From positions 1 to 28,049 of the IMG/VR virus record IMGVR_UViG_3300027987_000030: a DNA stretch of 28,049 nucleotides; one strand, given 5' to 3'. Shown here piece by piece: positions 2,256-23,744 of the stretch; the first letter of the stretch is position 1, and each line of letters begins with the position of its first letter. The notes beneath the pieces were generated by a model, which worked only from the letters and a program-made list of their open reading frames with translations, did not search any database and was not told the origin of the DNA. The DNA comes from a virus. The position numbers were made by a program, and so were the translations under genes.

Positions 2256-2270
2256 AGAGCGTCATGCTCT
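2256..2270 (-). promoter_or_regulatory. Possible 5'-terminal RNA stem-loop of the HTH unit
   Basis: The sequence AGAGC-GTCAT-GCTCT (read on plus) is a perfect inverted repeat. On the minus strand the stem GAGC/GCTC would begin at the predicted first transcribed G (2269). Terminal stems like this protect the 5' end of some phage mRNAs. It is a sequence inference only. Confidence 0.45.
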
Positions 2271-2287
2271 ATTAGATAATGCCGTTT
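2269..2287 (-). promoter_or_regulatory. Promoter-like element, copy A (leftward, HTH unit)
   Basis: On the minus strand this reads AAACGGCATTATCTAATAG, identical over 18 bases to the copies at 9248, 18188 and 23707. It is 30 bases upstream of the HTH start and points towards it. After TAATA only one G is present (GAGC) where most other copies have GG. Its form resembles promoters of T7-type RNA polymerases. Confidence 0.75.
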
Positions 2288-2292
2288 GTTTC

Positions 2293-2317
2293 TTTGTTCA
2301 ATCCACTATTGAACAAA
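2293..2317. repeat. Perfect 10-bp inverted repeat before copy A
   Basis: TTTGTTCAAT (2293-2302) pairs with ATTGAACAAA (2308-2317) around CCACT. It overlaps the stop codon of the phosphoesterase gene and lies 5 bases before promoter copy A in the leftward direction. There is no T run on the minus strand, so it is not a classical rho-independent terminator. It could be an operator, an RNA processing site or a terminator for a phage polymerase. A related palindrome precedes copy F. Confidence 0.6.
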
Positions 2318-2968
2318 TACTCCATCCTTCCATTCAACCATAACTGTCTCATGCCTCTTTAGGGACACTACAGGAATGTTCTGAATGGCCGGATATACCT
2401 CTCGATTGGGGTGGGTCACCGTTACCACGAGCTTAGGACGGGTGGCGTAGATGATGTTTCGGATCCCCGGAGCATCTAGATACTCGTACACCACTAGCAG
2501 ATCCGTTGGCCCACTAGAGCAGGCTCTCTCTACTTCTCTGCGTGTGTAGTGCCGGTAATACCTAGGGCCGGGCTCTCCGTTGTACGTATCCGCGCTATAG
2601 ACCTTGCCGAATCCTGTGACCCGTAGCTCACTCTCCCAGCCGATAGTCGTCTTGAACCCCTGATGCAGATAGTGAACATTGTTCAAGATCTGCGTATTCC
2701 CAGAGTTCACTCGTCTGGTGAGCCAGTGGTGATCATCATGCACGCCTGCGATGGTAAGGGTTGGTGTGACGTAAGGGGTGAGGGCTCCAACATACATTCG
2801 TGCGAAGTCCCTACCAGCGTGCTTACGAGAGGCGCGATCCATGTAGTGAGGATCAGGGTGTACACCATAGTCCCCAGCGCATACAACCCAATTAGCCCCA
2901 GAACCTTTAATACTGTTGTAGAAATCATTAAGGTGCCCCTCAATCGGCCCGCTTAGTAGCAGCTTCAT
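2306..2968 (-). CDS. Calcineurin-type phosphoesterase, Dbr1-like, with degenerate metal site
   Basis: A 220-residue protein whose layout follows lariat-debranching-type metallophosphoesterases. Motif I region is residues 6-16 (SGPIEGHLNDF), motif II is GDY at 32-34, the GNHE equivalent is GVHDD at 75-79, the strand LLVVYEYLDA (157-166) stands where Dbr1 has SHDWP, and THPNR is at 185-189. Several metal ligands of the family are changed: the motif I Cys/Asp-x-His gives Pro-x-Glu, Asn of GNHE is Val, and the later His is Tyr. It may be inactive or use altered metals. ATG at 2968 has GGAGG 9 bases upstream; an upstream TTG at 2974 is too close to that site. It is last in the integrase unit. Confidence 0.65.
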   Translation of the reverse strand: MKLLLSGPIEGHLNDFYNSIKGSGANWVVCAGDYGVHPDPHYMDRASRKHAGRDFARMYVGALTPYVTPTLTIAGVHDDHHWLTRRVNSGNTQILNNVHYLHQGFKTTIGWESELRVTGFGKVYSADTYNGEPGPRYYRHYTRREVERACSSGPTDLLVVYEYLDAPGIRNIIYATRPKLVVTVTHPNREVYPAIQNIPVVSLKRHETVMVEWKDGVFVQ

Positions 2969-3242
2969 TTTCAAGTGCCTCCACCCGTGAACGTAGATCG
3001 TTCATGTCATTCTCAATGAGAACGACAGCTTCGGTCATAGCCTTCTGTAGAAGCTTAATCACCTCTACAGCCTTGTGCTCAGCCCGCCATTCGATAGCCT
3101 TGGCGAACTTCTCTGCTACCGTGCGGATCTTCTCGTGGCTCTTGACAGGCAGCATAGTGACCCCTGCCGCCCTGAACATATCGTAGAAGAAGCCTGAGAA
3201 GGCATCTACGAATTCATGGTCCCGAGGTGTAAGTTCACTCAT
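2940..3242 (-). CDS. Hypothetical 100-residue helical protein
   Basis: The protein is not recognised. I place the start at ATG 3242 because AGGAG lies 7 bases upstream and the ATG sits inside the end of the preceding gene (AATGAGTGA overlap). A longer frame opening at 3332 has no such site and only overlaps the neighbour. Residues 1-40 are mixed (SELTPRDHEFVDAFSGFFYD), residues 45-75 are helical, and the C-terminus is an acidic coiled coil (LIENDMNDLRSRVEALENEA). The last bases overlap the phosphoesterase start. It belongs to the leftward integrase unit. A scaffold-like or regulatory partner is possible; nothing in the sequence decides. Confidence 0.65.
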   Translation of the reverse strand: MSELTPRDHEFVDAFSGFFYDMFRAAGVTMLPVKSHEKIRTVAEKFAKAIEWRAEHKAVEVIKLLQKAMTEAVVLIENDMNDLRSRVEALENEAATKRAD

Positions 3243-3588
3243 TATTCTTCTCCTTTGTTGCATCGAGCGTGTCCTTAGCGAACAGCGCGAACTTTGCACT
3301 GATATCCTGCATGGCAATCTGAACGACGCCATCTAGGTTCTTCTGGGTAGGGTCGTTCTCGAACATGGTCAGGCGCGAGAACAGAGCAGCGAAACCGCCC
3401 TTACCGGGATCGATCCCATAGTGAGTGTAACCGTTGTCGGCCACCTTCACCTTCTCTGACTCGTCCTTAACTGCTCGTACAGCTTCCTTCACCTTCTCTT
3501 TGTTGAAGATGAATTCAGGCTTGAACACCGGCTTAGCTGCCGGGTCGGGCTCCTCAGGAAACTCCACAGGCTTGAAATACTTGCTCAT
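3235..3588 (-). CDS. Hypothetical 117-residue protein
   Basis: The protein is not recognised. Two ATGs lie close together (3594 and 3588). GGAGG directly abuts the first, which is too tight, and is 6 bases from the second, so I choose 3588 (MSKYFKPVEF). The N-terminal 30 residues are rich in Pro, Lys and Phe (EEPDPAAKPVFKPEF), likely unstructured. Then comes a charged helix (NKEKVKEAVRAVKDESEKV) and a more hydrophobic C-terminal half with FAALFSRLTMF and a final helix. It follows the integrase by a 4-base ATGA-type contact, so it is translated together with it. Role unknown. Confidence 0.65.
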   Translation of the reverse strand: MSKYFKPVEFPEEPDPAAKPVFKPEFIFNKEKVKEAVRAVKDESEKVKVADNGYTHYGIDPGKGGFAALFSRLTMFENDPTQKNLDGVVQIAMQDISAKFALFAKDTLDATKEKNNE

Positions 3589-3590
3589 AG

Positions 3591-4382
3591 TCATCCTCCA
3601 ACTGCTTTGTTAATGTCTACCTCATCTTGGGTTACGTTCCAATAGATGCCTAGGGTGGTAGTTACGTTGCTGTGTCCTAGCCACAGTTGCACTTGCTTGG
3701 GAGAGATACCCCTCTCAAGCGCAGTAGTAGCGAACGTGTGCCGCAGATCATGGAACCGGATCTCCGGGGCCTCGATGAACCGGCACAGGCGTCGCAGGAT
3801 AGGGTTGGGGTCGTGGATCTCGAATATGCGCTCTTCTGGGGCACGGAATGCAACATTTCGGCCCATTGTCATCGCGTCCACAAGTTCCTTTGACATGGGG
3901 ACGAAGCGCGTGCGGCCGTTCTTGGTAGGCCCGTCATAGGAGCGGGATACCTTGATCCGGCCTTTGATCATATCAACATCGCCACACCGGAGGCCGAACA
4001 CCTCTCCTCTGCGGAGCCCGGCGTGTAGGCCCAGTAGAAGGACAGGGAGGAACTTGGGCTCAACGCGACGGCAAATGTGAGTTAGCGCCAGTCCTTGAGC
4101 ATCGGTCAACACCACTAGCTCGGGCTGCTGCTCCTCCCGGGTCAGCATCTTGTGATATTGTTTAATGTCAACAGGAGGGAGGTTGTAGAACTTCCGATAG
4201 TCGCGCAATAGACGAAGCAATACTTGACGAGTACGAACACTCAGCCCTTTCTCTTTCCATTTGTTCAATGCATTAGGGATATCATCACTCCCAAGGCTGA
4301 GAATATGATTAAGGTAAAGTGAACGATACGCCCGAATAGTGTTCGGGCGACCCATGAAGGTGTCCTCAAATCGGTCAGGCAT
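3591..4382 (-). CDS. int: Tyrosine recombinase (phage integrase)
   Basis: A 263-residue integrase with the complete tyrosine recombinase set: Arg124 (AGLRRGEVFG), Lys154 in the beta-hairpin (GPTKNGRTRF), His211 and Arg214 (HDLRHTFATT), His237 (WLGHSNVTTT) and the nucleophile Tyr247 (LGIYWN). A short helical core-binding domain occupies about residues 10-75. No separate arm-binding domain is obvious, so the protein is small for a phage integrase. The start is ATG 4382, with GGAGG 6 bases upstream. The frame stays open to 4448, but that longer form would begin before the predicted transcription start (4393). The mRNA leader would be only 11 bases. It would cut and join attP and attB; the att sites are not identified. 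Confidence 0.93.
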   Translation of the reverse strand: MPDRFEDTFMGRPNTIRAYRSLYLNHILSLGSDDIPNALNKWKEKGLSVRTRQVLLRLLRDYRKFYNLPPVDIKQYHKMLTREEQQPELVVLTDAQGLALTHICRRVEPKFLPVLLLGLHAGLRRGEVFGLRCGDVDMIKGRIKVSRSYDGPTKNGRTRFVPMSKELVDAMTMGRNVAFRAPEERIFEIHDPNPILRRLCRFIEAPEIRFHDLRHTFATTALERGISPKQVQLWLGHSNVTTTLGIYWNVTQDEVDINKAVGG

Positions 4383-4390
4383 TTCAGTCC

Positions 4391-4411
4391 TCCTACTAGA
4401 TAATGCCGTTT
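4391..4411 (-). promoter_or_regulatory. Promoter-like element, copy B (leftward, integrase unit)
   Basis: On the minus strand this reads AAACGGCATTATCTAGTAGG, with one change (A to G) from the other copies, three bases before the predicted start. The initiating GGAGG doubles as the ribosome binding site of the integrase, whose ATG is 11 bases from +1. It is divergent to copy C about 70 bases away. Confidence 0.75.
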
Positions 4412-4477
4412 CCGCCAGGAAATTTCCAGTTAGGATAAAGTAAAACAAATCGCCTTTGTTGGATTAAACAATCAATG
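4412..4477. other. Spacer between divergent promoter-like elements
   Basis: This AT-rich spacer holds a 10-bp palindrome GGAAATTTCC (4418-4427), 6 bases upstream of copy B, and a weak TTGTT/AACAA stem (4456-4471) before copy C. It is next to the integrase and is non-coding if the integrase starts at 4382, so it is a candidate for a control region or part of an attachment site. No attachment core can be proven from this window alone. Confidence 0.4.
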
Positions 4478-4499
4478 AGACGGCATTATCTAATAGGGA
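4478..4499 (+). promoter_or_regulatory. Promoter-like element, copy C (rightward, fibre unit)
   Basis: AGACGGCATTATCTAATAGG matches the other copies except for one base near the 5' end. It lies about 25 bases upstream of the TTG start of the first rightward gene. Predicted initiation is GGGAC at 4496. A small ACTA-ATC-TAGT stem follows immediately. Confidence 0.75.
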
Positions 4500-4520
4500 C
4501 TAATCTAGTGAGGTTTCAGC

Positions 4521-4790
4521 TTGGGCAATCGGTGGACAATCGAAGACGGTAACACCGATCCCGGCAAGTCAGACCGGTACGAGTGGCGTCTGCCTGAAAA
4601 TGATAATAAGCATGTTGAAGAGGCGCTAGCTCCCGGTGACCTATTGATCAAGCCCAGTAAGATCACTCTTAAGCCAACTCTTTCACCAAAGGCTTCCGGC
4701 GTTCAGCACGGATGGGAAGATTGGACTAAGCAGACATTCACCGATAGCGGGACGTGGTATTCTTACGGTACCATCATCCAAGAGGACTAA
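4521..4790 (+). CDS. Small hypothetical protein upstream of fibre
   Basis: An 89-residue protein that begins with TTG at 4521. An in-frame TGA at 4509 rules out an earlier start, and GAGG lies about 9 bases upstream. It is rich in Trp, Asp and Thr (RWTIEDGNTDPGK, GWEDWTKQTFTDSGTWYSYG) and has no membrane segment. No family is recognised. It is the first gene of the copy C unit and overlaps the fibre start by a TAATG junction, so it is probably a small virion or fibre-associated protein. The non-ATG start and spacing suggest modest expression. Confidence 0.6.
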   Translation: MGNRWTIEDGNTDPGKSDRYEWRLPENDNKHVEEALAPGDLLIKPSKITLKPTLSPKASGVQHGWEDWTKQTFTDSGTWYSYGTIIQED

Positions 4791-7645
4791 TGGCGAACAC
4801 TGAACGATTCGGTACCTTCTACGCCCCGTGGCCCGTCATTGACGGCAAGCCGCTTAATCTTCAATGGGGAGAGATCCGTCAGAATCATGCCGAGACAAAG
4901 GCGATGGTACGCAACTCTTTCCAAGAGTTGCAGGACGGCCAAGACTCGCTCAACGCCATTAGATCTCTTCTAGGGCAAGCTTTCGGTGATATCGCATTCA
5001 GCAATCGCTATCGCTTCTACTACAACAAGAGCACTCGTGAGTTCTGCCTTCAGAAGAATGACGGTACTGTAGCTACCCCTTCTTGGACAGACGTATGGTG
5101 CATCCGTCTAGCAGACGGTCAGTTCCAGTCTGTCGCTCCGGGCGGTATCCAGTCGGATGCCGGCTTCTATGGTCCCGGCCTTGAGAACATCTATCAGATC
5201 GGTGAGACGGGCTCTACGGCAGATGAGTCGTTCCTACACCGCAGTAAGCTATTCTTCAACGTAGATGACGGCTTTGAGCTAGCAGAAATCACCTCTGGCG
5301 GCAACCAGGGCGGGGTAGAGGTTAAATACACCTTCCCATTCGGCCGCGCTCAGGAGTTCACGAAGGTAGGCCAAGAGTGGGTTGTTGAACATAACTACGG
5401 CATCAGTCCCGTACTTGTTCAGGTTATGGACACTGATAAGCGTGTCATCATCCCTGACAAGGCTGACGTTAGCGATCCCAACACAGCATACTTCTACTTC
5501 CATGACGTAGTAACCGGCTCAGTCTACATCGCCTCTGGTGGTGTGGGGGCGGTAAGCCTTGTCCCGCGTGACCCCTTCTACCTCGTTATGCGCACGGATG
5601 CCCAGACCGCCGGCCAGCGGCTCATGCACCCGAACGCGGACGTGATCTTCGATAGTCGCTTCTTCTACATCAACGTTGACCTAGATCCTGCTGCTGGTGG
5701 TGCCCACAAGACTGCGCACGTCTCACTTGATCCCAAGCGTCTTGGCGGCATGACCATCACTGATGGTAACAACAGCTACATCAGTGCAGACCTGTCTAAC
5801 TTCAATCAGGATCACTTCTACGTCTCTAGTGACCTGAACGGCAACCCCGTAATCAACCTGAAGTACGGTCCTACGGCCGGTGCAGGCGGTATCATCACTC
5901 TAACCGGTGATCGAAACCTAGCCACTACCGTTGTAGGCGTAGATGCCACAGTAGCACTCCAGCCCAAGCTCGGAGGCATGAAGGGCTTCTACTTCAACAA
6001 CGGAGACAACATCTACGCTGGTGGCAGCATCCACGTTGACGTGGGCGGCACTGAGCGCATGGTTATCGGCAAGGATGGAGTTCGAGTTCTTGACCGTGTA
6101 GAGGCCGGCTCGTTCTATACTAGTGGCCTTGACATTTACGACTTCACTAGCAGCACTAAGACCATTCATGCTCACCAGAGGGGATTGTTCATCATCTCTC
6201 AGCATTCTGGCACTGGTGACCAAGTTCAGCTTCGCGCGGTCAATTCAGACCCGCAGTTCGCTTCCGGTAGTACCATTACAGTTACCAATAGTGGTGGCGG
6301 TAGCACTAATGGTATCACGTTAAATACGTCTGCTGGCGGGAACCTTGATATTAATCTCAAGGCCGGTACTGGCTATGTTCTAAGTAGTTCCAAGAACCTA
6401 ACCATTGACAAGAACAAGCTACAGTTCCATAAGATCATTCGTGCCAACGCATTCTACACCTTCACTGGTGAGCTTACTGGCGGTGGTGGAGGCGGTGTAA
6501 CTGACCACGGCGCTCTTACTGGTCTAACGGACGACGATCATACTCAATATCTCCTAGTGAGTGGCACCCGAGCAATGACGGGCGATCTTGATATGGGCGG
6601 CTTCGACTTGCTCGATGCTGCTTCTGGTAAGTTCGGCCAGCAAGTAACAGCAGCTAACTTCTACCTCAGTCTTGGTGGTGAGCTTGTACCTTACCTCTTC
6701 AATCGAAACCACTTCTATCTTACTCCTAGGAAGACGGACGCGGATTCCATTGAGAAGGTAGTTAACTTCGTACTTGATCCTACTACTATCGTAGTGGCTA
6801 ATACCCCGGCCTCAGGCCCAATTGACGCTGGTAACAATAAGATCAAGAACGTCGGTAAGGGCAATACTAGCTCTGATGCTGCACGACTCGACGATATCCC
6901 GCCCGGCTTCTATGGCATGGTGGTCAAGCAGTCTGATGGTGTTGCGTCCTTCGATGGCATCAAAGTCATCAACTTTGAGACTGCCAACTTCTACATCACC
7001 CAGAATAGCCCCAACACAGATGAAGTTCAAGTCAACTTCCGTGGCTCTTCTGGTGGTGGCGCTGGCGTCAGCGATCACGGTGCTCTAACGGGTCTGGCCG
7101 ATGACGATCACACCCAATACGTCCTGGCTGACGGCACCCGAGACATTACGGGTCGCATCGGCCTTACTGCCGGTACAGACATTACCGGCTTTACTACTGT
7201 TGATGGCGCAGTTAGAGTTAGAGACAAGGTTAATGCGGCTGGTTTCTATCTGAACCCCGGCGCACAAGGATTGGGTCATGATTTCTCTCAGATCGACATG
7301 CCCATCGACATTGTGAGCCCCGGCATCACAAACTACTTCCTTGACTCCTTCGTATCACAGGGATACATCATCGAAGAGGTGGTACTTGCTTCTTCAACCG
7401 GCTCAGCATCAGTAGGCTTCTACATTCTCAGTAACACAGAGATGAAGCCACGCGGTATTGGTATCACTGGCAGTGGCGGTGCCGGAAACAATCTAGGTGA
7501 GTTCTACGTTTCTCCTGTAAGGCGCGCTATCACTGCAACTGCGAACAACCTCATGTCTGTAGATAGCTCTCTCGTAGCAAGCGTTCTCACATTGGCCGGC
7601 GCTGACCGTATCCGTGGGCGGATCAGGATCAGATTGAGCGGCTAA
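4790..7645 (+). CDS. Large tail fibre / virion surface protein with FY repeats
   Basis: A 951-residue fibre-type protein. ATG 4790 overlaps the preceding stop and has GAGG just upstream. The N-terminal 65 residues (FGTFYAPWPVIDGKPLNLQW and a following helix) look like a virion-anchoring part. The rest is beta-rich and low in charge, with two copies of a familiar phage-fibre motif, DHGALTGL-x-DDDHTQY followed by GTR-x-x-TG (about residues 571 and 762). There are about 18 FY or FF positions spaced along the chain, several as FY-x(3-5)-GEL or as FY-x(4-6)-NGNPVINL. A glycine run (GGGGGG) precedes the first DHGALTGL copy. It most likely contacts the host surface or forms part of the tail. No enzyme motif is seen. 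Confidence 0.85.
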   Translation: MANTERFGTFYAPWPVIDGKPLNLQWGEIRQNHAETKAMVRNSFQELQDGQDSLNAIRSLLGQAFGDIAFSNRYRFYYNKSTREFCLQKNDGTVATPSWTDVWCIRLADGQFQSVAPGGIQSDAGFYGPGLENIYQIGETGSTADESFLHRSKLFFNVDDGFELAEITSGGNQGGVEVKYTFPFGRAQEFTKVGQEWVVEHNYGISPVLVQVMDTDKRVIIPDKADVSDPNTAYFYFHDVVTGSVYIASGGVGAVSLVPRDPFYLVMRTDAQTAGQRLMHPNADVIFDSRFFYINVDLDPAAGGAHKTAHVSLDPKRLGGMTITDGNNSYISADLSNFNQDHFYVSSDLNGNPVINLKYGPTAGAGGIITLTGDRNLATTVVGVDATVALQPKLGGMKGFYFNNGDNIYAGGSIHVDVGGTERMVIGKDGVRVLDRVEAGSFYTSGLDIYDFTSSTKTIHAHQRGLFIISQHSGTGDQVQLRAVNSDPQFASGSTITVTNSGGGSTNGITLNTSAGGNLDINLKAGTGYVLSSSKNLTIDKNKLQFHKIIRANAFYTFTGELTGGGGGGVTDHGALTGLTDDDHTQYLLVSGTRAMTGDLDMGGFDLLDAASGKFGQQVTAANFYLSLGGELVPYLFNRNHFYLTPRKTDADSIEKVVNFVLDPTTIVVANTPASGPIDAGNNKIKNVGKGNTSSDAARLDDIPPGFYGMVVKQSDGVASFDGIKVINFETANFYITQNSPNTDEVQVNFRGSSGGGAGVSDHGALTGLADDDHTQYVLADGTRDITGRIGLTAGTDITGFTTVDGAVRVRDKVNAAGFYLNPGAQGLGHDFSQIDMPIDIVSPGITNYFLDSFVSQGYIIEEVVLASSTGSASVGFYILSNTEMKPRGIGITGSGGAGNNLGEFYVSPVRRAITATANNLMSVDSSLVASVLTLAGADRIRGRIRIRLSG

Positions 7646-9210
7646 TGCCTAGAGTAAACACCACACTCAATGGCGGCAACGTTGGCGGGCTGAACCCTAA
7701 GGAGTCTTCTAAGACTACTATAGAACGAGGCCAGTTTGGTGGCTATGTTGCTAGCCCCAATCTTATCGCCCAGTCTGTTAGCGGAACCCAAACCGTTACT
7801 AACGATAATGCAATGCACTTGTATAATGGCGGTGGCTCTACTGTTGCTGGTGGTATTGGTGCTCAACAAGTGGAGCTTGGTCGGCTAGCCATCTTCGGCT
7901 GCTGGACTACAATGGACTATACAGCCGGTGACCCACAAACGTCAGGTAGATGGAACTGCTTTGAAGGCACTGGAGCTTCCCAGACTGATGCTACCGCGAC
8001 GGCGTTCTCACAGTGGGTCAACTGCACGATTACTACAGCTAACTCTCGCGACCACGGTGGCTGTTATTTCAACATGTCTGCCGACAGACCGGCTGCTGGT
8101 AGGGCATCTGAATGGGGCGTGAACTTCCGTAATAGCACACTTTCCAGTACATTGGAAGTTAGAGGCGAGGGTGCAACATTTGTTGGTTTTCCTGTTTACT
8201 CTTCACTAGCTATTGGTGACCCACAGACTGCTATTGCTTGGAATGCTGGTGGAACCATCGGCAAGCAGGCCGAAGAATGGGACGTTGCTGACGCGGGTAG
8301 CATTGACCCTAATAATGTAAAGAACGACGTGTCTGGCACCGTCACCGATACCTTCAATGTAGGACGAGAGGGCGATTATCTTCTGTGGTGGAACTGCCGT
8401 GTTGAGTCTGGCTCTACTGCTTCGACCCGTTCCCTACGTTGGCACTTCTTGCTGGACGGAGTAGACGCATTTGGCGTCAATACGGACACTGCTACTTCCG
8501 GTGCTGTAAAGACAGGCCGCGGGTTCCAGTGCTCGTATCCGACGGGCGAGTCCACACAGCTATTCTTTGGCTCGATTCAGGTAAAGCATTTGAAAGCTGG
8601 CTCCTATACGGCTGGCTTCAAGTGCAACAAACACGAAAACGTTACAGGCACTTCCGAAGCGTTCTCTGCTCTACGATGCCACGCGATTGATACTCGCGTG
8701 TTCAGTCAGTTTGAATACACCGCCATTACTGGCTTGAAGATAGAGACAGTAGCAAGCTGGGCCAATACTCCTGGCATTGATTCTTTGACAATCACAACGG
8801 ACGGGACAGCACCGATAATGATAGTGTTCAGCAGTAGCTATCACATCGGCACAAACTCTGTTACCGGCGGCGGCTATCCCGAGATTCGGATTACCAGAAA
8901 CGGAAATGCCATTACGCCTAATGGAACGTCTGGTCCCAACGCCATTCCCATTGGTATTCAAGTTCCATCTCTCGTCCCTGACGGTGCTGCTTCTACTCAG
9001 GACTCGGATAATGCGACCCTGCCTTATACGTTTGTATGGATTGATAACCCCGGAGCGGGCACTTACACATACAGAGTCCAGTCACAGCTTGCTACGAGCG
9101 GGACAGCATACTGGAACTGTAATGACAACGGCGCAGCCGGATTTACTGGATTGTTCGCCGCCGCTGAGCTAAAGCTGGCTCAGTGGAACTATCATATCGA
9201 CAATGTTTAA
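7645..9210 (+). CDS. Beta-rich virion protein with two jelly-roll-like domains
   Basis: A 521-residue protein, ATG 7645 overlapping the fibre stop (TAATG). Residues 1-60 are Asn/Gly/Thr-rich. About residues 60-200 form a beta domain with several Cys and Trp (CWTTMDYTAGDPQTSGRWNC). About residues 230-345 look like a C1q/TNF-type jelly roll (FNVGREGDYLLWWNC, ending HAIDTRVF). A second similar sandwich occupies about 360-510 (DSLTITTDGTAPIMIVFSSS, then PGAGTYTYRVQSQL). Such domains are common in phage receptor-binding or head-surface proteins. It is the last gene of the copy C unit. Fold call is by pattern and moderate; virion role is inferred from context. Confidence 0.7.
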   Translation: MPRVNTTLNGGNVGGLNPKESSKTTIERGQFGGYVASPNLIAQSVSGTQTVTNDNAMHLYNGGGSTVAGGIGAQQVELGRLAIFGCWTTMDYTAGDPQTSGRWNCFEGTGASQTDATATAFSQWVNCTITTANSRDHGGCYFNMSADRPAAGRASEWGVNFRNSTLSSTLEVRGEGATFVGFPVYSSLAIGDPQTAIAWNAGGTIGKQAEEWDVADAGSIDPNNVKNDVSGTVTDTFNVGREGDYLLWWNCRVESGSTASTRSLRWHFLLDGVDAFGVNTDTATSGAVKTGRGFQCSYPTGESTQLFFGSIQVKHLKAGSYTAGFKCNKHENVTGTSEAFSALRCHAIDTRVFSQFEYTAITGLKIETVASWANTPGIDSLTITTDGTAPIMIVFSSSYHIGTNSVTGGGYPEIRITRNGNAITPNGTSGPNAIPIGIQVPSLVPDGAASTQDSDNATLPYTFVWIDNPGAGTYTYRVQSQLATSGTAYWNCNDNGAAGFTGLFAAAELKLAQWNYHIDNV

Positions 9211-9221: not shown

Positions 9222-9244
9222 CAATTCTTCTGCCTGAAGAATTG
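9222..9244. repeat. Perfect 9-bp inverted repeat before copy D
   Basis: CAATTCTTC (9222-9230) and GAAGAATTG (9236-9244) enclose TGCCT, 3 bases upstream of copy D. No T run follows. It sits at the boundary of two units, like the palindromes before copies A, B, E and F, so it may end upstream transcripts or be a processing or binding site. Confidence 0.55.
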
Positions 9245-9247: not shown

Positions 9248-9270
9248 AAACGGCATTATCTAATAGGAGA
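9248..9270 (+). promoter_or_regulatory. Promoter-like element, copy D (portal unit)
   Basis: AAACGGCATTATCTAATAGG, identical to copies E and F, is followed by AGA. Predicted initiation is at 9266. A separate AGGAG at 9273-9277 serves as ribosome binding site for the gene at 9284, giving an 18-base leader. Confidence 0.8.
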
Positions 9271-9283: not shown

Positions 9284-9568
9284 ATGAGCAACGTTGCTAC
9301 TAGGATCTACAACAACAACCTTGGCTCCGCTCGAACGGTATCCACCGGTTCGATGCGAGTGTTCCTTATCACAATCACGAACACCACCAATGCAGTTGTT
9401 GATTATGAGATCACCGACGCTGCTGGTAACGGTGTCTTCAACATCACGGTCCCCGCGGACAATACCCACACGATTGAAATCTCGAATGGGTTCATTGTTC
9501 AAGGAATGATCGTGGCGGCAGAGGCAGCTACCAGCTATGTTACCGTATTGTACAGCGCCGACGCATAG
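9284..9568 (+). CDS. Small beta-sandwich virion-type protein
   Basis: A 94-residue protein with AGGAG upstream of ATG 9284. It is almost all short beta strands rich in Thr, Asn and Val (MRVFLITITNTTNAVVDYEI, then FNITVPADNTHTIEISNGF) with no Cys or membrane segment. The pattern is that of a small Ig-like or decoration-type virion protein, and several other proteins of similar size and composition lie at 20595-24698. It is first in the copy D unit, which continues to the portal. Exact function is not known; a head or tail surface role is inferred. Confidence 0.65.
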   Translation: MSNVATRIYNNNLGSARTVSTGSMRVFLITITNTTNAVVDYEITDAAGNGVFNITVPADNTHTIEISNGFIVQGMIVAAEAATSYVTVLYSADA

Positions 9569-9577
9569 GGCTGAACA

Positions 9578-10213
9578 ATGGCTAATGTTAGCGGGGATCT
9601 TGCCGTCAAGAACAAGATGGACGTTACCGATAACGCCCATTTCCATAAAGGACTGCAATCTCCCTACCTTGAGATGGTGGACTCGAAGGATTCGGGTACG
9701 GCAGGAGGTGACTTCAATGCCGACACCAACTTCTTTGCTGGTTGGAAGACTCGTGATCTAACATCCGTATTGTTCAATGATTTCGCTACTACTATCACCG
9801 ATGTAGCTGGAGTTATTGATATTGAGGCTTCACCGGGGAGTCTTAGTCCAGGCGACGGGGCACGATTCACGCTTCCTGCCGGCATCTATTTCATTGAGGC
9901 AGAGGCCCCGGCGCTGGACGTAGGCGAGCACGTTGCTCGTCTAGCAGACGTTACCGACCAAGCTGGTGGTAGCGCAGCAACCGTAGTATTGGGAACTTCA
10001 GAATACTGCGGTTCTGCAATCACGGGCGACTCGGTACAAACCAAGTCCAAGATTGTTGGTAAGTTCCAACTATCACGAAGTACAACGCTTGAGATTCAAC
10101 ATCGTTGTGCAGTGACTAGGGCTACCGACGGTTTCGGTAGCGATGGTGCATTCTATGAAACAGCTAACGTGTTCACGACTGTCCGTATGTGGCAGGTTCG
10201 GGCCGATTACTAG
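9578..10213 (+). CDS. C1q/TNF-like jelly-roll virion protein
   Basis: A 211-residue protein, ATG 9578. Residues 1-75 are an N-terminal attachment part containing GDFNADTNFFAGWKTRDLTS. Residues 78-211 follow a pattern common in phage fibre tips: FTLPAGIYFIEAEAPALDVG, then HVARLADVTD, GTSEYCGSA, SKIVGKFQLSRSTTLEIQH, GFGSDG and a final strand TTVRMWQVRADY. This is the jelly-roll, C1q-like type and normally trimerises. The place before the portal gene in the copy D unit supports a virion part, perhaps receptor binding. The family is recognised by pattern, not by search. Confidence 0.7.
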   Translation: MANVSGDLAVKNKMDVTDNAHFHKGLQSPYLEMVDSKDSGTAGGDFNADTNFFAGWKTRDLTSVLFNDFATTITDVAGVIDIEASPGSLSPGDGARFTLPAGIYFIEAEAPALDVGEHVARLADVTDQAGGSAATVVLGTSEYCGSAITGDSVQTKSKIVGKFQLSRSTTLEIQHRCAVTRATDGFGSDGAFYETANVFTTVRMWQVRADY

Positions 10214-10224
10214 GGAGAAGTAAC

Positions 10225-10554
10225 ATGGCTGACTTTGATGATGACACACGAGATTATACGCGAAGCGATCAGGCTCTACTAGCTCGCCTTGAGCGAGAGA
10301 ATGAGCGTAAGAAGGCCAAGGCAGAGGCGGCTAGCAAGGCTATGGCGCGCACGATTGCTGCCGGCCTGAAGGACGCTAATACGAAGCAGGCCATTGCTCG
10401 TGAGCTTCTTGAGCTTAATGATGAGGATGGTGAGCGTAGTCGCAAGCTTGCGAAGTACATTCACGTTCATGGTCAGGGCAAGGGAGTATCGGAGTTCGAG
10501 GCTAACCAGGGTCGTTACTGGGAAGATGACGGCAGCCAGGACGACGACTTCTAG
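10225..10554 (+). CDS. Small charged helical protein
   Basis: A 109-residue protein. ATG 10225 has GGGAGAAG just upstream; the earlier in-frame start overlaps the previous gene and lacks a site. The N-terminus is very acidic (ADFDDDTRDYTRSD), the middle is a long charged helix (ARLERENERKKAKAEAASKA, then TIAAGLKDANTKQAIARELL) and the C-terminus is acidic again (WEDDGSQDDDF). This charge layout is common in phage assembly factors and internal head proteins. It comes two genes before the portal. I cannot name a family; an assembly role is an inference from position. Confidence 0.65.
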   Translation: MADFDDDTRDYTRSDQALLARLERENERKKAKAEAASKAMARTIAAGLKDANTKQAIARELLELNDEDGERSRKLAKYIHVHGQGKGVSEFEANQGRYWEDDGSQDDDF

Positions 10555-10556
10555 TC

Positions 10557-10940
10557 ATGGCTTGGGGAAGTAAAGACCAATTGATTGCTGAAGTATCCGC
10601 TCTCAAGAGAGAGAACGAGTTACTTCAGAAGTTCTTTGAGAAGAAGGAAGCTGAGGTAGAGGAGCTTCGCAAGACTATCGGCATCCTTCAGGACGCCCTC
10701 ATTGCCAAGGAATCCCCTATGGTCTATAGGGATATGAAGATGGCAGAGGAGCAGGCCAGGGAGCCGCAGGCTGATCCCGAAGAACTAAAGAGACAGCAAG
10801 ATCTAAACAAGTTCAATGCGCTGTTTCTAAATGAACTTGAAGGCGACCTATTCAGGGACGCAGATGATATGATCTCGGCACTTCAGAATGCGGCCGGTGG
10901 GCCTGAGTTCGAGTCACTTCACGGGAATGAGGAAAGCTAA
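10557..10940 (+). CDS. Coiled-coil protein upstream of portal
   Basis: A 127-residue protein whose residues 7-55 form a clear coiled coil with heptad leucines (LIAEVSALKRENELLQKFFE followed by KKEAEVEELRKTIGILQDAL). The second half is acidic and helical (DLNKFNALFLNELEGDLFRD). The ribosome binding site is weak, so coupling from the gene ending at 10554 is likely. Its stop overlaps the portal start by one base (TAATG). It could be a portal or packaging partner. No named family is recognised. Confidence 0.65.
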   Translation: MAWGSKDQLIAEVSALKRENELLQKFFEKKEAEVEELRKTIGILQDALIAKESPMVYRDMKMAEEQAREPQADPEELKRQQDLNKFNALFLNELEGDLFRDADDMISALQNAAGGPEFESLHGNEES

Positions 10941-14416: not shown

Positions 14417-14425
14417 GAGAGCCAC

Positions 14426-15039: not shown

Positions 15040-15404
15040 TGGCTGATGAGTATCTGTCAATCTTCCCGGTATCCAGCCCGATTGATAGAAGCTTTGGTTC
15101 TACGGAACTCAAGGCTCCTAAGCCTATGTCGGATGAGATCTTCGATACCAAGTATAAGAAGATGCTGAAGAAGGTTCGGCCTTTACTTGAGGTTAAGGAA
15201 GAGGCAGATAAGGTCTATTCTAACGGCTACTTTGAGAACCATTATCCCGAGGCTGACAAGAAGCTAAAGAGCTTGCTACATGAGAAGGCTATGGATGCAT
15301 GGGCTCGCTCACTATCTAGCAAAGACGCCAAGGTAGAGGACGAAGAGGAAGAGGAGAAGGCCGAGAAGAAGGCTATCTCTATCACGATCTCTCTGGGGCT
15401 GTAA
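15039..15404 (+). CDS. Hypothetical protein with acidic C-terminus
   Basis: A 121-residue protein, ATG 15039 coupled to the previous stop. The first 40 residues are Ser/Pro-rich, the centre is helical and charged (KYKKMLKKVRPLLEVKEEAD), and residues 100-113 are almost all Glu/Lys/Asp (VEDEEEEEKAEKKA) before a short hydrophobic end (ISITISLGL). It is just upstream of the second long fibre and overlaps its start. The layout could suit a chaperone or fibre-assembly factor, but I do not recognise a family. Confidence 0.6.
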   Translation: MADEYLSIFPVSSPIDRSFGSTELKAPKPMSDEIFDTKYKKMLKKVRPLLEVKEEADKVYSNGYFENHYPEADKKLKSLLHEKAMDAWARSLSSKDAKVEDEEEEEKAEKKAISITISLGL

Positions 15405-18076
15405 TGCCTAATCTCACGAAAGAGCAGATCAAGAAGCTCAATGAGTGGGCTAGGACGCAGCCCGGTCTACGCGGAGTATTTCCCTACACAGAAGCTCGGA
15501 ATGTTAGAACTGAGGGGCTAGGGACACGTTTGTCCGAATATGGCGGCGTCATCCGAGGTGAGGCATTCTACACGGATGGCGATGGTGAAGTAGCTACTCA
15601 GAGTTGGTCCAATGGTCAGTATCGAAGGCTCGATGACGCTAGTCCTATCAGCGCCCAGGCATTCTACGTCCAGTCCGGTGGTGAACTTAGCGTCAGGGGA
15701 CTAGTCGTCCCTATCGGTTCAAAGCCTGCCCCGTCCATTTCATTCGTAGGCGACTCTGATACCGGGCTCTACAGTCCTCACCATAACCACCTCCACATCG
15801 CCAGTGGTGGCAGCGACCGTCTTGATGTTAGTGGTGAGGGTGTCCGTGTTCACGGTCGTCTTCACACCGATACGTTCTATCTCACAGGCTTCGGTGAGCT
15901 TCACGACTTCACCTATGACTACTTCCTCGGCTCTACCCTGCACGATACGAGTGTATCGGTAACCAGTAACGGCACTACGGTAACTGTCAGCTACTCCGGT
16001 GAGACTACCACCTCCGACATTAGGCTCTTGTTCGGTGCTGGCGTTCAAACTTTTCAAGGCCCTATTACGGCTACGTTGACTCCCGGCACCGATGCTTCGC
16101 CCACTCTGAACTACGTCTACATCTTGGCTTCTGCTCCTAGCACATTGGTAGTGAGCACTACAGGGTTCCCGGCTGAGAGCATTGAGTATTGCCCGGTTGC
16201 TCAGGTGCTCTGCCAGTCTGCCGCTGGCGTCCAGAGCTACGGAGCCTACAAGGTTCACTCGTGGAACGACCATGCCCACTCGGCCAACCCCGCTGGGCAC
16301 GGACACATCGGCCACATCAACGCTTGGATTCGCACCCAGCCGGCTACTTGGATTAGTGGCGTCTCTCTAACGCCCACAATCAATACGGCCCCGACCCCTG
16401 ATACGGTAAGCCTTGCGTGCTCGTCTGGTGTAGTGCTTCAGCTACACCGGAACTCTTGGCCTTCATTCGCTGATGGAACTGGCTTCTTCGTGGTGAACCA
16501 CCCGACTGCGGCCTACACTCGTGTCACCACGATGCCCGGCCTGGACTCTAACGGTAATGCCATTGGCAACGGTAACCGCATCTCCGTAGTGGTCTGGGGC
16601 AGTATCAACTCTAACTCAAGCGACTGCAAGCTCTTCATGAACTTGCCCTCGGGCTACTATCAGACCGATGCTGCGGCCATCGCTGATGATAGCGACTACA
16701 CTAACTTCACCATTCCCAGCACCTTTACCGGCACTGGCTTCCTCATCAGCAATCTCATCTATTCCTACTCGAACACGAATGGCGGCTCTTACACTCTGGT
16801 AAAGCACACGGACTTGAGGGGCCTCTTCCCGTCCGTTGCAGGCGGCGGTGCCTCCGCGTCCCAGACAGAGTTCCTTGACAGCACGTTCAGGGTCAACGAC
16901 AACACGGACCAGACCAAGGAACTCGCGTTTGAGGTTAGCGGCGTAACGACCGGCACTGTAAGAACGCTCACGGTGCCCGACAAGAGCGGTACCATCTCGG
17001 TCATGTCCAGCGTGAAGGATGGGACTAACACCCATACGAGCCCCACGGCGCTGAACTTTAACAATAGCGACTTCTACCTCTCGGTGAACAATAACGGGAA
17101 CCCTGTAGTCAACATACTTCAGAACTACGCTAACAAGAACGCACAATGGAACACCTTCGATAACGGTATCACTGCTGAGGCGTTCTATGTGCCTAACGCG
17201 GGTGAGCTATCTAGAGACAACACTACTGGGTATGCAACTGTAATCGGCACTACTGGAGCTGCGCTGTCTGGCCCTGGAACCACTGCCACACGATCCATTA
17301 TCGCGGCGAGCGCTACCGGTGTTGCAGCGCAGGCTTTGAACGGCGGGACGCTCAATTTCACGGCGTCCAATGCCAACGTCACTCTCTCTGCTCTTGGAAC
17401 AAGCGGTAATGTATCTATCGCTGCCCCCAGTCAGATTCAGTTGCTTGTTGGAAACATTAACCAAGATAACTATATCCGTATCGGTAAAGACGGTACCAAG
17501 ATCGGCAACAAGGTAAAGTCCGATGGCTTCTATCTTATCAGTGGTGGTGAGCTTGGGCTGAAAGATTGGCGAGCTACTGCATATGATCAAGTAATCTCTA
17601 ATAGTAATGCTGAGACTACTATCTTTAGTGCAACTGTTCCTGGCGGCTTGCTTGGATCTGATGGTGTCCTAGACTACCAGATGAATGGCAACACCTATAA
17701 CTTCACTGGTGTAAGTCACAACATTCGCTATGCGATCTACTGGGGCGGGATCAAGAGGGTTGACGTAAACGGTAGCGGTCTTGGCTCTGTAGACCGAATG
17801 CGGCCGAAGCAGGTAAAGTTCAGGATTGCCGCCTGTGGATCGGATCAAGCTCAGTTCATTGCCGGTACTGACCACGACGGTATTGGCTCAAACCAAGCTG
17901 TAACTGGTATTGCTGCGGCCATCGGTGGCGCAGAGATCTATTTCAATAGTCAGAATAAGACTACTGTTGATAGCAGTGTGGATCAAACTCTTCAAGTAAC
18001 AGCTACTCTTACGGGTACTGCTAGTGCGGCATGGTCGTTCTATGTGAGGGATCAGGAAGCAAGGATTCAACGATAA
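15404..18076 (+). CDS. Second large tail fibre protein with FY-GEL repeats
   Basis: An 890-residue fibre. N-terminal helix NLTKEQIKKLNEWARTQPGL is followed by FY modules at about residues 54 (AFYTDGDGEV), 85 (AFYVQSGGEL), 157 (TFYLTGFGEL), 557 (DFYLSVNNNGNPVVNI), 592 (AFYVPNAGEL) and 707 (GFYLISGGEL). A SFVGDSDTGLYSP segment (about 113) is common in phage fibres. Residues 285-305 are His-rich (HAHSANPAGHGHIGHINAW) and begin a beta domain that ends near FLISNLIYSYSNTNGGSYTL. The last 170 residues form another beta domain, perhaps the tip. Module sharing with the 951-residue fibre suggests common origin. It ends the copy D unit just before a strong terminator. Confidence 0.85.
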   Translation: MPNLTKEQIKKLNEWARTQPGLRGVFPYTEARNVRTEGLGTRLSEYGGVIRGEAFYTDGDGEVATQSWSNGQYRRLDDASPISAQAFYVQSGGELSVRGLVVPIGSKPAPSISFVGDSDTGLYSPHHNHLHIASGGSDRLDVSGEGVRVHGRLHTDTFYLTGFGELHDFTYDYFLGSTLHDTSVSVTSNGTTVTVSYSGETTTSDIRLLFGAGVQTFQGPITATLTPGTDASPTLNYVYILASAPSTLVVSTTGFPAESIEYCPVAQVLCQSAAGVQSYGAYKVHSWNDHAHSANPAGHGHIGHINAWIRTQPATWISGVSLTPTINTAPTPDTVSLACSSGVVLQLHRNSWPSFADGTGFFVVNHPTAAYTRVTTMPGLDSNGNAIGNGNRISVVVWGSINSNSSDCKLFMNLPSGYYQTDAAAIADDSDYTNFTIPSTFTGTGFLISNLIYSYSNTNGGSYTLVKHTDLRGLFPSVAGGGASASQTEFLDSTFRVNDNTDQTKELAFEVSGVTTGTVRTLTVPDKSGTISVMSSVKDGTNTHTSPTALNFNNSDFYLSVNNNGNPVVNILQNYANKNAQWNTFDNGITAEAFYVPNAGELSRDNTTGYATVIGTTGAALSGPGTTATRSIIAASATGVAAQALNGGTLNFTASNANVTLSALGTSGNVSIAAPSQIQLLVGNINQDNYIRIGKDGTKIGNKVKSDGFYLISGGELGLKDWRATAYDQVISNSNAETTIFSATVPGGLLGSDGVLDYQMNGNTYNFTGVSHNIRYAIYWGGIKRVDVNGSGLGSVDRMRPKQVKFRIAACGSDQAQFIAGTDHDGIGSNQAVTGIAAAIGGAEIYFNSQNKTTVDSSVDQTLQVTATLTGTASAAWSFYVRDQEARIQR

Positions 18077-18146: not shown

Positions 18147-18177
18147 TTCTTTGTTCACTCTAACTGAAGCTGACTGA

Positions 18178-18189
18178 TTATTTAAATAA
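18178..18189. repeat. 12-bp AT palindrome before copy E
   Basis: TTATTTAAATAA is a perfect palindrome that runs into the first bases of copy E. It fits the pattern of a palindrome preceding most of the promoter-like elements, though here it is AT-only and could simply ease melting. Confidence 0.45.
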
Positions 18190-18210
18190 ACGGCATTATC
18201 TAATAGGAGC
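18188..18210 (+). promoter_or_regulatory. Promoter-like element, copy E (scaffold/capsid unit)
   Basis: AAACGGCATTATCTAATAGG, followed by AGC, is identical to copies D and F. It lies between the terminator and the scaffold gene. Predicted initiation is 18206. The leader to the scaffold ATG is about 117 bases, the longest of the six. Confidence 0.8.
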
Positions 18211-18303: not shown

Positions 18304-18322
18304 ACAATAGGAGGTGCCAGTT

Positions 18323-19264
18323 ATGGCAACTGCGTCAGACGAACTTACCCAGGCCCTACAGGATGTAGCATCGGGTAAGGCAGCGGACTCGCAAGCCGCA
18401 GAGAGCGATGATTCGGAAATCACGCAGGCAGCAAAGGCCGCAGTAGCAGCCGGGAAGCCCGCCGATGCCGAAGGCAAGGCTCAAAGTACCGAAGGAGATA
18501 AGAGTAAGACCGTTCCTTATGAGCGATTCTCCGAGGTAGTATCACAGAAGAACGAAGCGTCCGAACGGCTCAAGGCCCTCGAAAGCCAGTTCAAGTCTGT
18601 GAGTGATGAGAGAACTAGTCTCAACGAGCGCGTGAAGCAGCTTGAGACGGACCACCAGATCCTTGAGGCAATCAAGGGACTGGCGAAGGATCCGCGGTAT
18701 TCTAAGGATATCGTGCGTCTGGATAAGGCCCTTCAAGGTATTCACGAAGAGCAGGAAGAGGCGAAGGAAAAGGGCGATGACAAGACTCTTTCCAAGCTTG
18801 AAGAGCAGTGGAAGGAGAAGGTTGCCGAGATCGAAGACATGCAGGCTGAGCAGCGTGCTCAGGCTCTATGGAACGATTCCAGCACCTATGCCCGCCAGCT
18901 TCTCGCATCCCTACCGGATGAATACTCCGACGAGGACAAGGCTATCATCAGCAAGCTTTGGACTCCCGAAGTCAACTGGGACACAATCGAAGAGCAGGGT
19001 AGGGAAGTCATCCCCGCCGAGCTTAAGAAGTCCCTGGCTGCCGTGATTAAGACATACGGAACTCCGCGCGGTGCTGTGGTCGAGAAGACCAAGCAAGAAG
19101 TAATGAAGAATGTCCCCAAGTCCATTGTTCAGTCCAACGACGAATTCCGCAAGGAAGTAGAGTCAAAGGATTGGGCATCCATGAAGGACGGTCAGTTCGA
19201 GCAGTCCGATGCCGATTTCTCGGCAGCGGTTGGCGAGCTACTCCGACGTGGGCGGGCTAGCTAG
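18323..19264 (+). CDS. Capsid scaffolding protein
   Basis: A 313-residue protein directly upstream of the major capsid gene. It is highly charged and almost fully helical. The first 60 residues are low-complexity Ala/Asp/Glu/Lys. Residues 60-185 are coiled coil (NEASERLKALESQFKSVSDE, then RTSLNERVKQLETDHQILEA). The C-terminal part has shorter helices and a basic last stretch (LLRRGRAS), the usual capsid-binding end. This is the classical layout of phage scaffolds that guide prohead assembly and then leave. ATG 18323 has AGGAGG 8 bases upstream; a GTG at 18314 is too close to that site. It is driven by copy E. Confidence 0.88.
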   Translation: MATASDELTQALQDVASGKAADSQAAESDDSEITQAAKAAVAAGKPADAEGKAQSTEGDKSKTVPYERFSEVVSQKNEASERLKALESQFKSVSDERTSLNERVKQLETDHQILEAIKGLAKDPRYSKDIVRLDKALQGIHEEQEEAKEKGDDKTLSKLEEQWKEKVAEIEDMQAEQRAQALWNDSSTYARQLLASLPDEYSDEDKAIISKLWTPEVNWDTIEEQGREVIPAELKKSLAAVIKTYGTPRGAVVEKTKQEVMKNVPKSIVQSNDEFRKEVESKDWASMKDGQFEQSDADFSAAVGELLRRGRAS

Positions 19265-19311: not shown

Positions 19312-20526
19312 ATGTCTATTACATTTCAGACTCTAGGCGACATGCTCCTCCGTCGGTACGTCGTGGATTCAATTTTCCAGACGCAGCAGCTTTCTGCTCC
19401 TGTTTATAGCCGACTGAAGGAGAACAGCAAGTGGCAGCCCTCAGGTGAGGGTGTGTACTTTGCTGTGCGCGTTGACGGTAACGAGTCGGGTGGTGCATGG
19501 CGTGGTAAGGACGACAACACCCTCCCGAGTGCCGGTAACGAGCGCATCAAGCAGGCTAAGGTTGAGCCGAAGAAGTATTACCACACGGTATCCTTCTCGG
19601 GTCTTGCCGAGGCCGTTTCTCGCCGCGGTGGCGAGGATGCATTCGCAGCAGCGATTACGGACGCCATTAACATGGCAACCCGACGCGCTGGTGCCAATTT
19701 CGAGACTACCTTCCTCCGTGGGGATGGTACGGGCCGCATCACCAACGTTGCAACTGCTGCAACGGCTGGTACGACCATCACGGTCGATGATGCCCGAACC
19801 TTCCGCGCCGGGCAGGTTCTCGTCTTCCTAAACAACACGACTGGCCTCAAGGTGGCTGGTCCCGTAACTGTTACGAGCCGGAACGTTTCGACTCCCTCGG
19901 TTACGGTAAGTGCCCCGGTCACGGTTGCCGTTGACGACGGGATCTACATCTCTGGCGAGCAGGACGAGGCTTCGTCCCCCGCCGAGGTGACGGCTCTCGG
20001 ACTCCCGGCCCTCGTGTCCAACACGGGTACGATCTACAACCTCAGCCGCACGACCTACCCGATTCTTCAGAGTCAGGTCATTGCAGCAGGCAGCGTAGCA
20101 CTCGATGAGTCGCTACTCCGTCGGCTCCGCAAGCGGCTGATGATCGAGACGGCAGTTGACTCGCTCGACGGGTTCACGTACATCTCCAACCACGACCAGT
20201 TCGACCGGTATACGGAGATCGCGCTACCCTTCCGGCGCTTCAACGACATGAAGCTTGAGCTTGGCGCTCAGCAGGCCATGACTACGTTCGAGGGTCACCC
20301 CTGGACCGTAACGTGGGCTGCTCTCCCTGATGAAATCTATTTCATCAATCTGGGCGCAATTGAGCGTGGTGTCGTTCGCCCCCTCTCGATTGACGAGCGC
20401 GTAAACATGGCATGGGTACCGGGGCAGGACGCCTTTACGGTCCTCATGAAGTTCTACGGTGAGAACGTCGGTGCGAAGCTAAACCAGACCGCAAGGATCA
20501 CTGGTCTAACCCTCCCGACCTACTAA
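19312..20526 (+). CDS. Major capsid protein (HK97-type fold likely)
   Basis: A 404-residue protein next to the scaffold, with TAGGAG before ATG 19312. It contains segments usual for HK97-fold capsids: an N-terminal helix (TLGDMLLRRYVVDSIFQTQQ), an E-loop region with beta hairpins (SGEGVYFAVRVDGNESGGAW), a spine-helix region (EDAFAAAITDAINMATRRAG), then a middle beta insertion (about residues 140-225, AGTTITVDDARTFRAGQVLV) and the axial domain with ELGAQQAMTTFEGHPWTV. Codons are strongly biased to C- or G-ending forms (CTC, CGC, ACG) unlike most neighbours, as expected of the most abundant protein. A terminator follows the stop. Confidence 0.9.
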   Translation: MSITFQTLGDMLLRRYVVDSIFQTQQLSAPVYSRLKENSKWQPSGEGVYFAVRVDGNESGGAWRGKDDNTLPSAGNERIKQAKVEPKKYYHTVSFSGLAEAVSRRGGEDAFAAAITDAINMATRRAGANFETTFLRGDGTGRITNVATAATAGTTITVDDARTFRAGQVLVFLNNTTGLKVAGPVTVTSRNVSTPSVTVSAPVTVAVDDGIYISGEQDEASSPAEVTALGLPALVSNTGTIYNLSRTTYPILQSQVIAAGSVALDESLLRRLRKRLMIETAVDSLDGFTYISNHDQFDRYTEIALPFRRFNDMKLELGAQQAMTTFEGHPWTVTWAALPDEIYFINLGAIERGVVRPLSIDERVNMAWVPGQDAFTVLMKFYGENVGAKLNQTARITGLTLPTY

Positions 20527-20879: not shown

Positions 20880-20881
20880 CA

Positions 20882-21516: not shown

Positions 21517-21550
21517 TCTAGCCCTGATCACGCAGGACATGGGGTTCTAG

Positions 21551-22204: not shown

Positions 22205-22216
22205 AGGAGTACAGAA

Positions 22217-22420: not shown

Positions 22421-22487
22421 TTAAATGGGAAGCTACGGCTGCTGTAACATCAGTGGCCGTAGCGCCTCCATCAAAAGAGGATTGATA

Positions 22488-22924: not shown

Positions 22925-22933
22925 GAGACAAGA

Positions 22934-23293
22934 ATGGCTCCCCCGCAGCTAACAGATTATGAAGAGCACGCGGTAAGCCTGCCGGATGGTAAGGTATTCG
23001 TAGTCAGTCGAGTTAAGCCTATTAGCTCAACTGACTATATCCAGGCCCCGGCAGCAATCATCTCTGGGTCACATTCACGATCAGCCAACAGCGGGCAGAC
23101 AGGCTCTTCACTAGTTGGCAGGGTAATCAACACGAAGGTATATCCCTCGTTCTACAGCTACTCAGAGATGAAGAGCGGTGCTCTCTTCTACACATCAAGT
23201 GATGCTACGCAAGTTAATGTCGGCACCTACGTTGGCAATGATGTAACTCTTGCTAGCCTGCTCGTCAAAGAGCGCGTTATCGGAATCAACTAA
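22934..23293 (+). CDS. Small virion-type protein, MAPPQ family member 2
   Basis: A 119-residue protein, ATG 22934 with TAGGAG upstream. It begins MAPPQ and shares the VxRVxPxxxxDYI pattern with the 104-residue protein at 20882, suggesting an old duplication. The middle is Ser/Gly-rich (ISGSHSRSANSGQTGSS), the C-terminal half is beta-rich (VNVGTYVGNDVTLASLLVKE). No membrane segment. It lies after the lysis-like genes, in the same unit. A virion surface protein is the best guess; the family is not named. Confidence 0.6.
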   Translation: MAPPQLTDYEEHAVSLPDGKVFVVSRVKPISSTDYIQAPAAIISGSHSRSANSGQTGSSLVGRVINTKVYPSFYSYSEMKSGALFYTSSDATQVNVGTYVGNDVTLASLLVKERVIGIN

Positions 23294-23302
23294 GGAGTTA
23301 CA

Positions 23303-23674
23303 ATGAGCACATATCTACCGATCTTCAGCAGGTACGTTCGACTCGGTAACGGAACTGAAGTTGGTATCCACAAGTTCGTTATCGATGAGAACGATCCGCC
23401 GGCAAGCAACACTATCACTTGGGAAGTCAAGCAGCTTAGTCGCCATCAGGTTCAGGTGGGTCAGCTTGTAGCATTGAACAATGCACAGGCCGGGCTCTTC
23501 CTATCTGTGACGGCTGCGAGTTCTGACTCAAACAACACCACGGCATCGGTTACACTGACGAAGGCCCAGTTACTCAGCATGAGCGTTCGCGGTGATCGGA
23601 ATCCCCACGAGCTATATTTCGTGACGTTCCATGACCGTGGTAGTGTGAATACTTCGACCTTCCGCGTCAATTAA
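23303..23674 (+). CDS. Small beta-rich virion-type protein
   Basis: A 123-residue protein, ATG 23303 with AAGGAG upstream. It is mostly beta with a polar loop (DENDPPASNTITWEVKQLSR) and a Thr/Ser-rich core (LSVTAASSDSNNTTASVTLT), ending in FVTFHDRGSVNTSTFRVN. The end pattern (VTFHD) is similar to VSFHDD of the protein at 20595. It is the last gene before copy F. It is probably another head or tail surface protein; I recognise no specific family. Confidence 0.6.
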   Translation: MSTYLPIFSRYVRLGNGTEVGIHKFVIDENDPPASNTITWEVKQLSRHQVQVGQLVALNNAQAGLFLSVTAASSDSNNTTASVTLTKAQLLSMSVRGDRNPHELYFVTFHDRGSVNTSTFRVN

Positions 23675-23679
23675 TCAAT

Positions 23680-23700
23680 TGTTCAAGTTGGACTTGAACA
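23680..23700. repeat. Perfect 9-bp inverted repeat before copy F
   Basis: TGTTCAAGT (23680-23688) and ACTTGAACA (23692-23700) enclose TGG, 6 bases before copy F. It shares the TGTTCAA...TTGAACA arms with the palindrome before copy A. There is no T run, so it is not a standard rho-independent terminator. Confidence 0.6.
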
Positions 23701-23706
23701 TTGCTT

Positions 23707-23729
23707 AAACGGCATTATCTAATAGGAGC
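23707..23729 (+). promoter_or_regulatory. Promoter-like element, copy F
   Basis: AAACGGCATTATCTAATAGG followed by AGC is identical to copies D and E. Predicted initiation is 23725. It lies 95 bases before the ATG of a single gene that is itself followed by a terminator, so this copy appears dedicated to that gene. Confidence 0.8.
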
Positions 23730-23744
23730 GAGTTGATCGCGTCC
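23725..23744 (+). promoter_or_regulatory. Possible 5'-terminal RNA stem-loop after copy F
   Basis: GGAGCGA starts at the predicted +1 and pairs with TCGC-G-TCC (one bulged G) around a GTTGA loop. The stem begins at the first transcribed base, as proposed for copies A and E. Confidence 0.45.

Follow-up and report, generated by a model that had tools for sequence, protein, structure and literature searches.

Repeated promoter elements of a podovirus are probably read by host RNA polymerase with a phage-encoded sigma70-family factor

The window, by which we mean the whole 28,049-base IMG/VR record analyzed here, is part of an incomplete genome and contains six copies of one directional repeat which, judging from their sequence and setting, almost certainly serve the phage as promoters of its own. 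We propose, at a probability of about three in four, that they are promoters of later gene blocks and are used by the host core RNA polymerase together with a sigma70-family factor, most likely one that the phage encodes. The evidence comes from the copies, their placement and direction, a two-box geometry, the variation of the sequence from phage to phage, and sigma genes in related phages. The phage, a podovirus, encodes a P22-like portal and an integrase of the tyrosine type; among the known phage records searched, its capsid had no relative and its portal a single distant one (21% identity).

When the window was scanned for AAACGGCATTATCTAATA with up to three mismatches, six matches were found, at 2270-2287 (-), 4394-4411 (-), 4478-4495 (+), 9248-9265 (+), 18188-18205 (+), and 23707-23724 (+), here called elements A to F. 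The scan reproduced the count given in a preliminary description, four exact copies and two (4411- and 4478+) that differ by one base. Shuffled sequence gave a chance expectation of 0.01 copies, no shuffle gave six, and at the same threshold there were no weaker copies inside genes of the window. The two bases after the element were GG or GA at every copy. The same description had all copies lying between genes, pointing along transcription, and each heading a block, and this was true of 6 of 6; the copy at 4411 (-) overlaps only a mechanical N-terminal extension of the integrase reading frame, and that at 18188 only a spurious reverse frame.

Element A (2269..2287, -), AAACGGCATTATCTAATA followed by G, has the -10 hexamer CATTAT and a predicted +1 at 2269, and heads a block (2239-1037, -) of genes for an 86-aa helix-turn-helix (HTH) protein (1979-2239, -; the first gene), a 202-aa protein, and a 113-aa protein. 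Element B (4393..4411, -), AAACGGCATTATCTAGTA followed by G, heads the integrase gene and the genes after it to 2306; we placed the integrase at 3591-4382 (-), with the ATG at 4382 (MPDRFEDTFMGRPNTIR) as its probable start, because the integrases of relatives begin MDFEDTF... Divergent from B is element C (4478..4496, +), AGACGGCATTATCTAATA followed by G, which heads tail-fibre-like genes at 4521-9210. The block of element D (9248..9266, +) extends from 9284 to 18076 and includes the portal gene (10940-13171, +), element E (18188..18206, +) heads the block of the scaffold (18314-19264, +) and major capsid (19312-20526, +) genes, and element F (23707..23725, +) heads later virion genes from 23769 to the contig end. 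Near the portal gene, a protein with a cREC_REC (cyclic-phosphate processing receiver-like) domain (14426-14815, +), unusual in a phage virion block, is kept in the window and in 11 of the 11 first relatives. The tail-fibre-like proteins at 4754-7645 and 15404-18076 (+) have a repeated (A/N)xFYxxxGGE-like motif, which tandem repeats encode in one relative, G010.

Relatives were gathered by searches with capsid, portal, terminase, UvsW-like helicase, and DNA polymerase, giving about 40 contigs, several of them 83-121 kb long; all are uncultivated and many are partial. Added to them was M263 (L041 / G012:C263; JAJFLM010000335.1), a 119.6-kb phage contig binned in a Deltaproteobacteria MAG, which is a hint of a host and not a proof. 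As two other contigs, G028 and G029, are nearly as long as M263, about 119.5 kb may be the full genome. The relatives have a T4-like replication set with a family A DNA polymerase, helicases, UvsX/RecA, gp32-like and SbcCD-like proteins, and also a B12-type ribonucleotide reductase. In M263 a LAGLIDADG domain, probably that of an intein, splits the reductase (24619-27582, -), and the family A DNA polymerase of G004 (75224-77932, -) has an N-terminal uracil-DNA glycosylase-like domain.

About 20 of these relatives had the element at corresponding positions, before the scaffold/capsid, portal, integrase, and tail genes, in phage-specific forms such as AAACGGTATTATCTAATA, AAACGGTATAATTAGGAA, AAACGGYATTATTTACTA, AAAAGGCATAGTTAA, and GAGACGGTATAATTAAGTA; the larger contigs contained their own form 3 to 10 times, between genes. 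Copies within one phage hardly varied, and different phages had the 5' part (A-rich, GG) and the -10 in common but not the bases right before the start. The 19-mer of the window itself had no exact match in a scan of viral contigs, since the relatives carry other variants. Such uniformity within and change between phages is what would be expected if the site and its reader drift together, and it agrees with the earlier suggestion, for which copies, placement, and direction also speak, that these would be phage-specific promoter elements defining transcription units. One further repeat, TATGTCACACCA in G016, was considered as a copy of the element and rejected as operator-like; its three copies (3461, 3742, and 3876) have inverted flanks.

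To define the geometry, 52 sites from 11 phages were aligned, anchored on the -10 hexamer. GMCTRA occupies -34 to -29 and is followed by a 16-base spacer that ends in AAACGG or AAAAGG, by YATWRT at -12 to -7, by six more bases, and by G(G/A) at +1. A-11 and T-7 were present in 52 of 52 sites, an invariance partly built into the per-phage search patterns, most of which came from within-phage repeats. Conservation reaches past the 18-mer to the upstream box near -34, which is common across phages and was absent from the preliminary description. This box rose to 1.2 bits per position relative to a shuffle 95% limit of 0.44 and a shuffle maximum of 0.52, about two-fold over the limit at its best positions. 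When the box was derived without each phage in turn and 44 registers were ranked, register -34 came first in 8 of the 11 held-out phages, the window among them, and the three exceptions have 1-3 sites each; the test is weakened by the possibility that some orthologous sites share flanks by descent.

In the held-out test five of the six window copies matched the box at 4-6 of its 6 positions. The -35-like boxes are GATTGA for A (2298..2303, -; 5/6), GATTAA for C (4462..4467, +; 5/6), GCCTGA for D (9232..9237, +; 6/6), GACTGA for E (18172..18177, +; 6/6), and GACTTG for F (23691..23696, +; 4/6); element B (2/6) and a few copies in relatives are without a good box. Directly upstream of A, D, and F are hairpins with 9-10 bp stems (2293-2317, 9222-9244, and 23680-23700) that enclose these boxes, that of A lying within a 10-bp stem, that of D in a 9-bp hairpin, across its loop and 3' arm, and that of F in another of 9 bp. 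Such hairpins are rare in the relatives and may be terminators that end one unit and are joined to the promoter of the following one. As a general cause of the -34 box hairpins were rejected, as stems of at least 7 bp occurred at only 5 of the 52 sites, 3 of them in the window.

An A-11/T-7 hexamer with a -35 box 16-18 bases upstream is the arrangement of sigma70-type promoters, and the conserved GG stands about 6-7 bases past the hexamer, where a sigma70-type start is expected; on this evidence transcription probably begins at the G that follows TAATA, as had been suggested. A point against a sigma70-type reading is that the sites are more strongly conserved from the discriminator through +2 than sigma70 promoters commonly are. 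In M263, G028, and G029, all three of which encode a sigma factor, the elements have the form TTGCAN-N17-[TG]ATAAT with a conserved TAAGTA or TAAATA discriminator. A second class in G028 and G029, TTGCAA-N17-TATAAT with an unconserved discriminator, heads other genes, some near replication genes, and probably represents, in G028, early promoters. The second-class sites of G028 are at 12683, 33332, 67579, 74990, and 84710 (+) and at 112087 and 33274 (-), and several copies share a conserved spacer, AAAGTTTGAAAGAAAAGC.

Asymmetric, oriented, intergenic repeats in a phage that, from its integrase, may be temperate could be stoperator-like sites for a repressor; however, repressor sites do not need a second box at a fixed distance, and exactly one copy heads each block with a fixed -34/-12/+1 spacing and invariant A-11 and T-7, so that we regard this explanation as highly improbable. 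We give still less credence to an RNA element of untranslated leaders, acting in ribosome binding or RNA processing. Although GGAG follows most copies, and at element B could act as a ribosome binding site, the next start codon is about 20 to 140 bases away, the conserved bases extend up to -34, and the occurrence on both strands and in divergent pairs suits promoters.

The preliminary description had taken the element for a T7-type promoter served by a single-subunit RNA polymerase encoded elsewhere in the phage, and a contiguous, directional 18-base element ending in TAATA and then GG(A/G), one per block, does look like one. The search for such a polymerase argued otherwise: PF00940 was absent from the window record and from 36 relatives of up to 121 kb, whereas the same search found T7 polymerase in T7 at 1e-110. 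Any single contig, that of the incomplete window genome included, might have a polymerase in its missing parts. A search with the DxDGD motif for beta'-like single-chain polymerases yielded only tail-like and similar proteins, and the large proteins of the relatives of about 119 kb have other assignments or are virion-like. T7-type promoters are contiguous elements of about 23 bp; the present element instead has a separate -34 box and a -10 hexamer at the sigma position, and some relatives combine sigma genes with versions that are plain -35/-10 promoters. A T7-type polymerase encoded outside the contig therefore seems very unlikely, and among the parts of the earlier proposal that fit the data is a reader encoded elsewhere in the phage, which we infer to be a sigma-type factor.

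Divergent sigma70-family proteins were found in nine relatives (G013, G014, M263, G028, G029, G030, G031, L227, and L228), with the gene at one place, 2-6 kb from that of the UvsW-like helicase. Pfam regions 2, 3, and 4 were found in these proteins, with phrog_351 matches at 1e-13 to 7e-63; those of G013 and G014 scored over the Pfam cut-offs, and those of M263, G028, G029, G030, and G031 are more diverged, with support from phrog_351. As a profile against PDB sigma factors, the alignment matched over regions 2 to 4 at 8e-51, a score helped by the canonical G013 member. For the G028 protein, AlphaFold gave a model (mean pLDDT 78.5, pTM 0.51) with sigma70/sigmaA as its best PDB matches at low TM-scores (0.3-0.4), perhaps because the domain arrangement differs. 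The canonical WWIRQ of the recognition helix is kept in G013 and replaced in G014, M263, G028, G030, and G031. G013, which has the most canonical sigma factor, gave no clear phage-specific element. Beside its 390-aa sigma factor there is a second, short sigma region 2 protein of 216 aa (6108-6758, -).

Scans of the contigs of the window clade by sigma profile, phrog_351, the sigma alignment, and patatin neighbour gave no sigma gene. The contigs of the window, G001, G002, G004, G010, and G015 end before the expected place, and for this reason the sigma gene of the window phage is inferred rather than seen. The end of G004 comes shortly after a patatin-like gene, and G031 has its sigma gene about 2 kb beyond the equivalent gene; gene order suggests that the window phage has its own.

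We also considered that the host sigma factor reads the elements and that a phage activator bound at AAACGG, for example the 86-aa HTH protein, assists or limits it. That protein weakly resembles sigma region 4 and is the first product of the element A block, the -10 is near the sigma70 consensus (TATAAT) in several relatives, and G028 and G029 have in addition the plain promoters with unconserved discriminator. However, matches to the HTH gene were confined to G001, G002, and the window, with one more by eye in G015, and the hexamer and the bases downstream of it co-vary (CATTAT-CTAATA, TATAAT-TAGGAA, CATAGT-TAACTA), which an upstream activator leaves unexplained. We consider recognition by the host sigma factor unlikely.

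We propose instead that the host multisubunit RNA polymerase carrying a phage sigma70-family factor reads the elements. The factor would contact the -34 box GMCTRA, the extended -10 AAACGG-YATWAT, and the stretch to the start, which in the window phage is CTAATA and then GG. Early genes would be transcribed with the host sigma factor, and a phage sigma made early would then turn on one block per copy. More tentatively, and at somewhat less than even odds, about 20 related large podoviruses would share a highly diverged sigma factor and a promoter that drifted together, with a long, near-invariant site (-34 to +2) and a per-phage code largely orthogonal to other phages and to the host.

With this interpretation a T7-like guess becomes a sigma/promoter system in a phage group without a close relative among the sequenced records searched, and an ending in TA and then GG, together with a long exact repeat, is insufficient for calling a T7-type promoter. 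As equivalent sites have different motifs in different phages, the sequences of sigma factors and promoters can be compared pair by pair to learn how sigma regions 2 and 4 acquire a new specificity, and such pairs could be put to use as orthogonal promoters.

Like the promoters of T7, T3, and SP6, the present elements are strongly conserved, directional, end in TA and then GG, and occur once per transcription unit; unlike them, they have a separate -34 box and a sigma-type -10, and a PF00940 polymerase was not found in the window record or the 36 relatives. In SPO1 and T4, phage-encoded specificity subunits redirect the host RNA polymerase to later genes, a likeness in function to the system proposed here. 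In Escherichia phage phiEco32 the sigma factor gp36 serves middle and late promoters, with the start 6-8 bases after the element (PMC8948821, PMC4331800). Its promoters have a single box, tAATGTAtA, explained by a sigma factor without region-4 homology (PMC8948821), as opposed to two boxes here; a phage sigma would be common to both, its genes here being those of the relatives. The closest known system is that of the Salmonella podovirus 7-11, a member of the phiEco32 group, in which the sigma factor SaPh711_gp47 acts with the host core RNA polymerase. Each late block there has one bipartite promoter, GTAAtg-(16)-aCTA, and in the related phiEco32 similar genome positions are occupied by another motif, of a single box (PMC8948821). 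The present case differs from 7-11 and the phiEco32 group in its motif, in the larger number of phages with diverging motifs, in sigma proteins with regions 1.2-4 encoded, in relatives, near a UvsW-like helicase, in the presence of an integrase, and in being known from sequence. As in 7-11 and phiEco32, a phage-specific motif stands upstream of late blocks and differs between related phages at similar positions; with bipartite promoters, one per block, the present system appears, by analogy, to work as that of 7-11 does.
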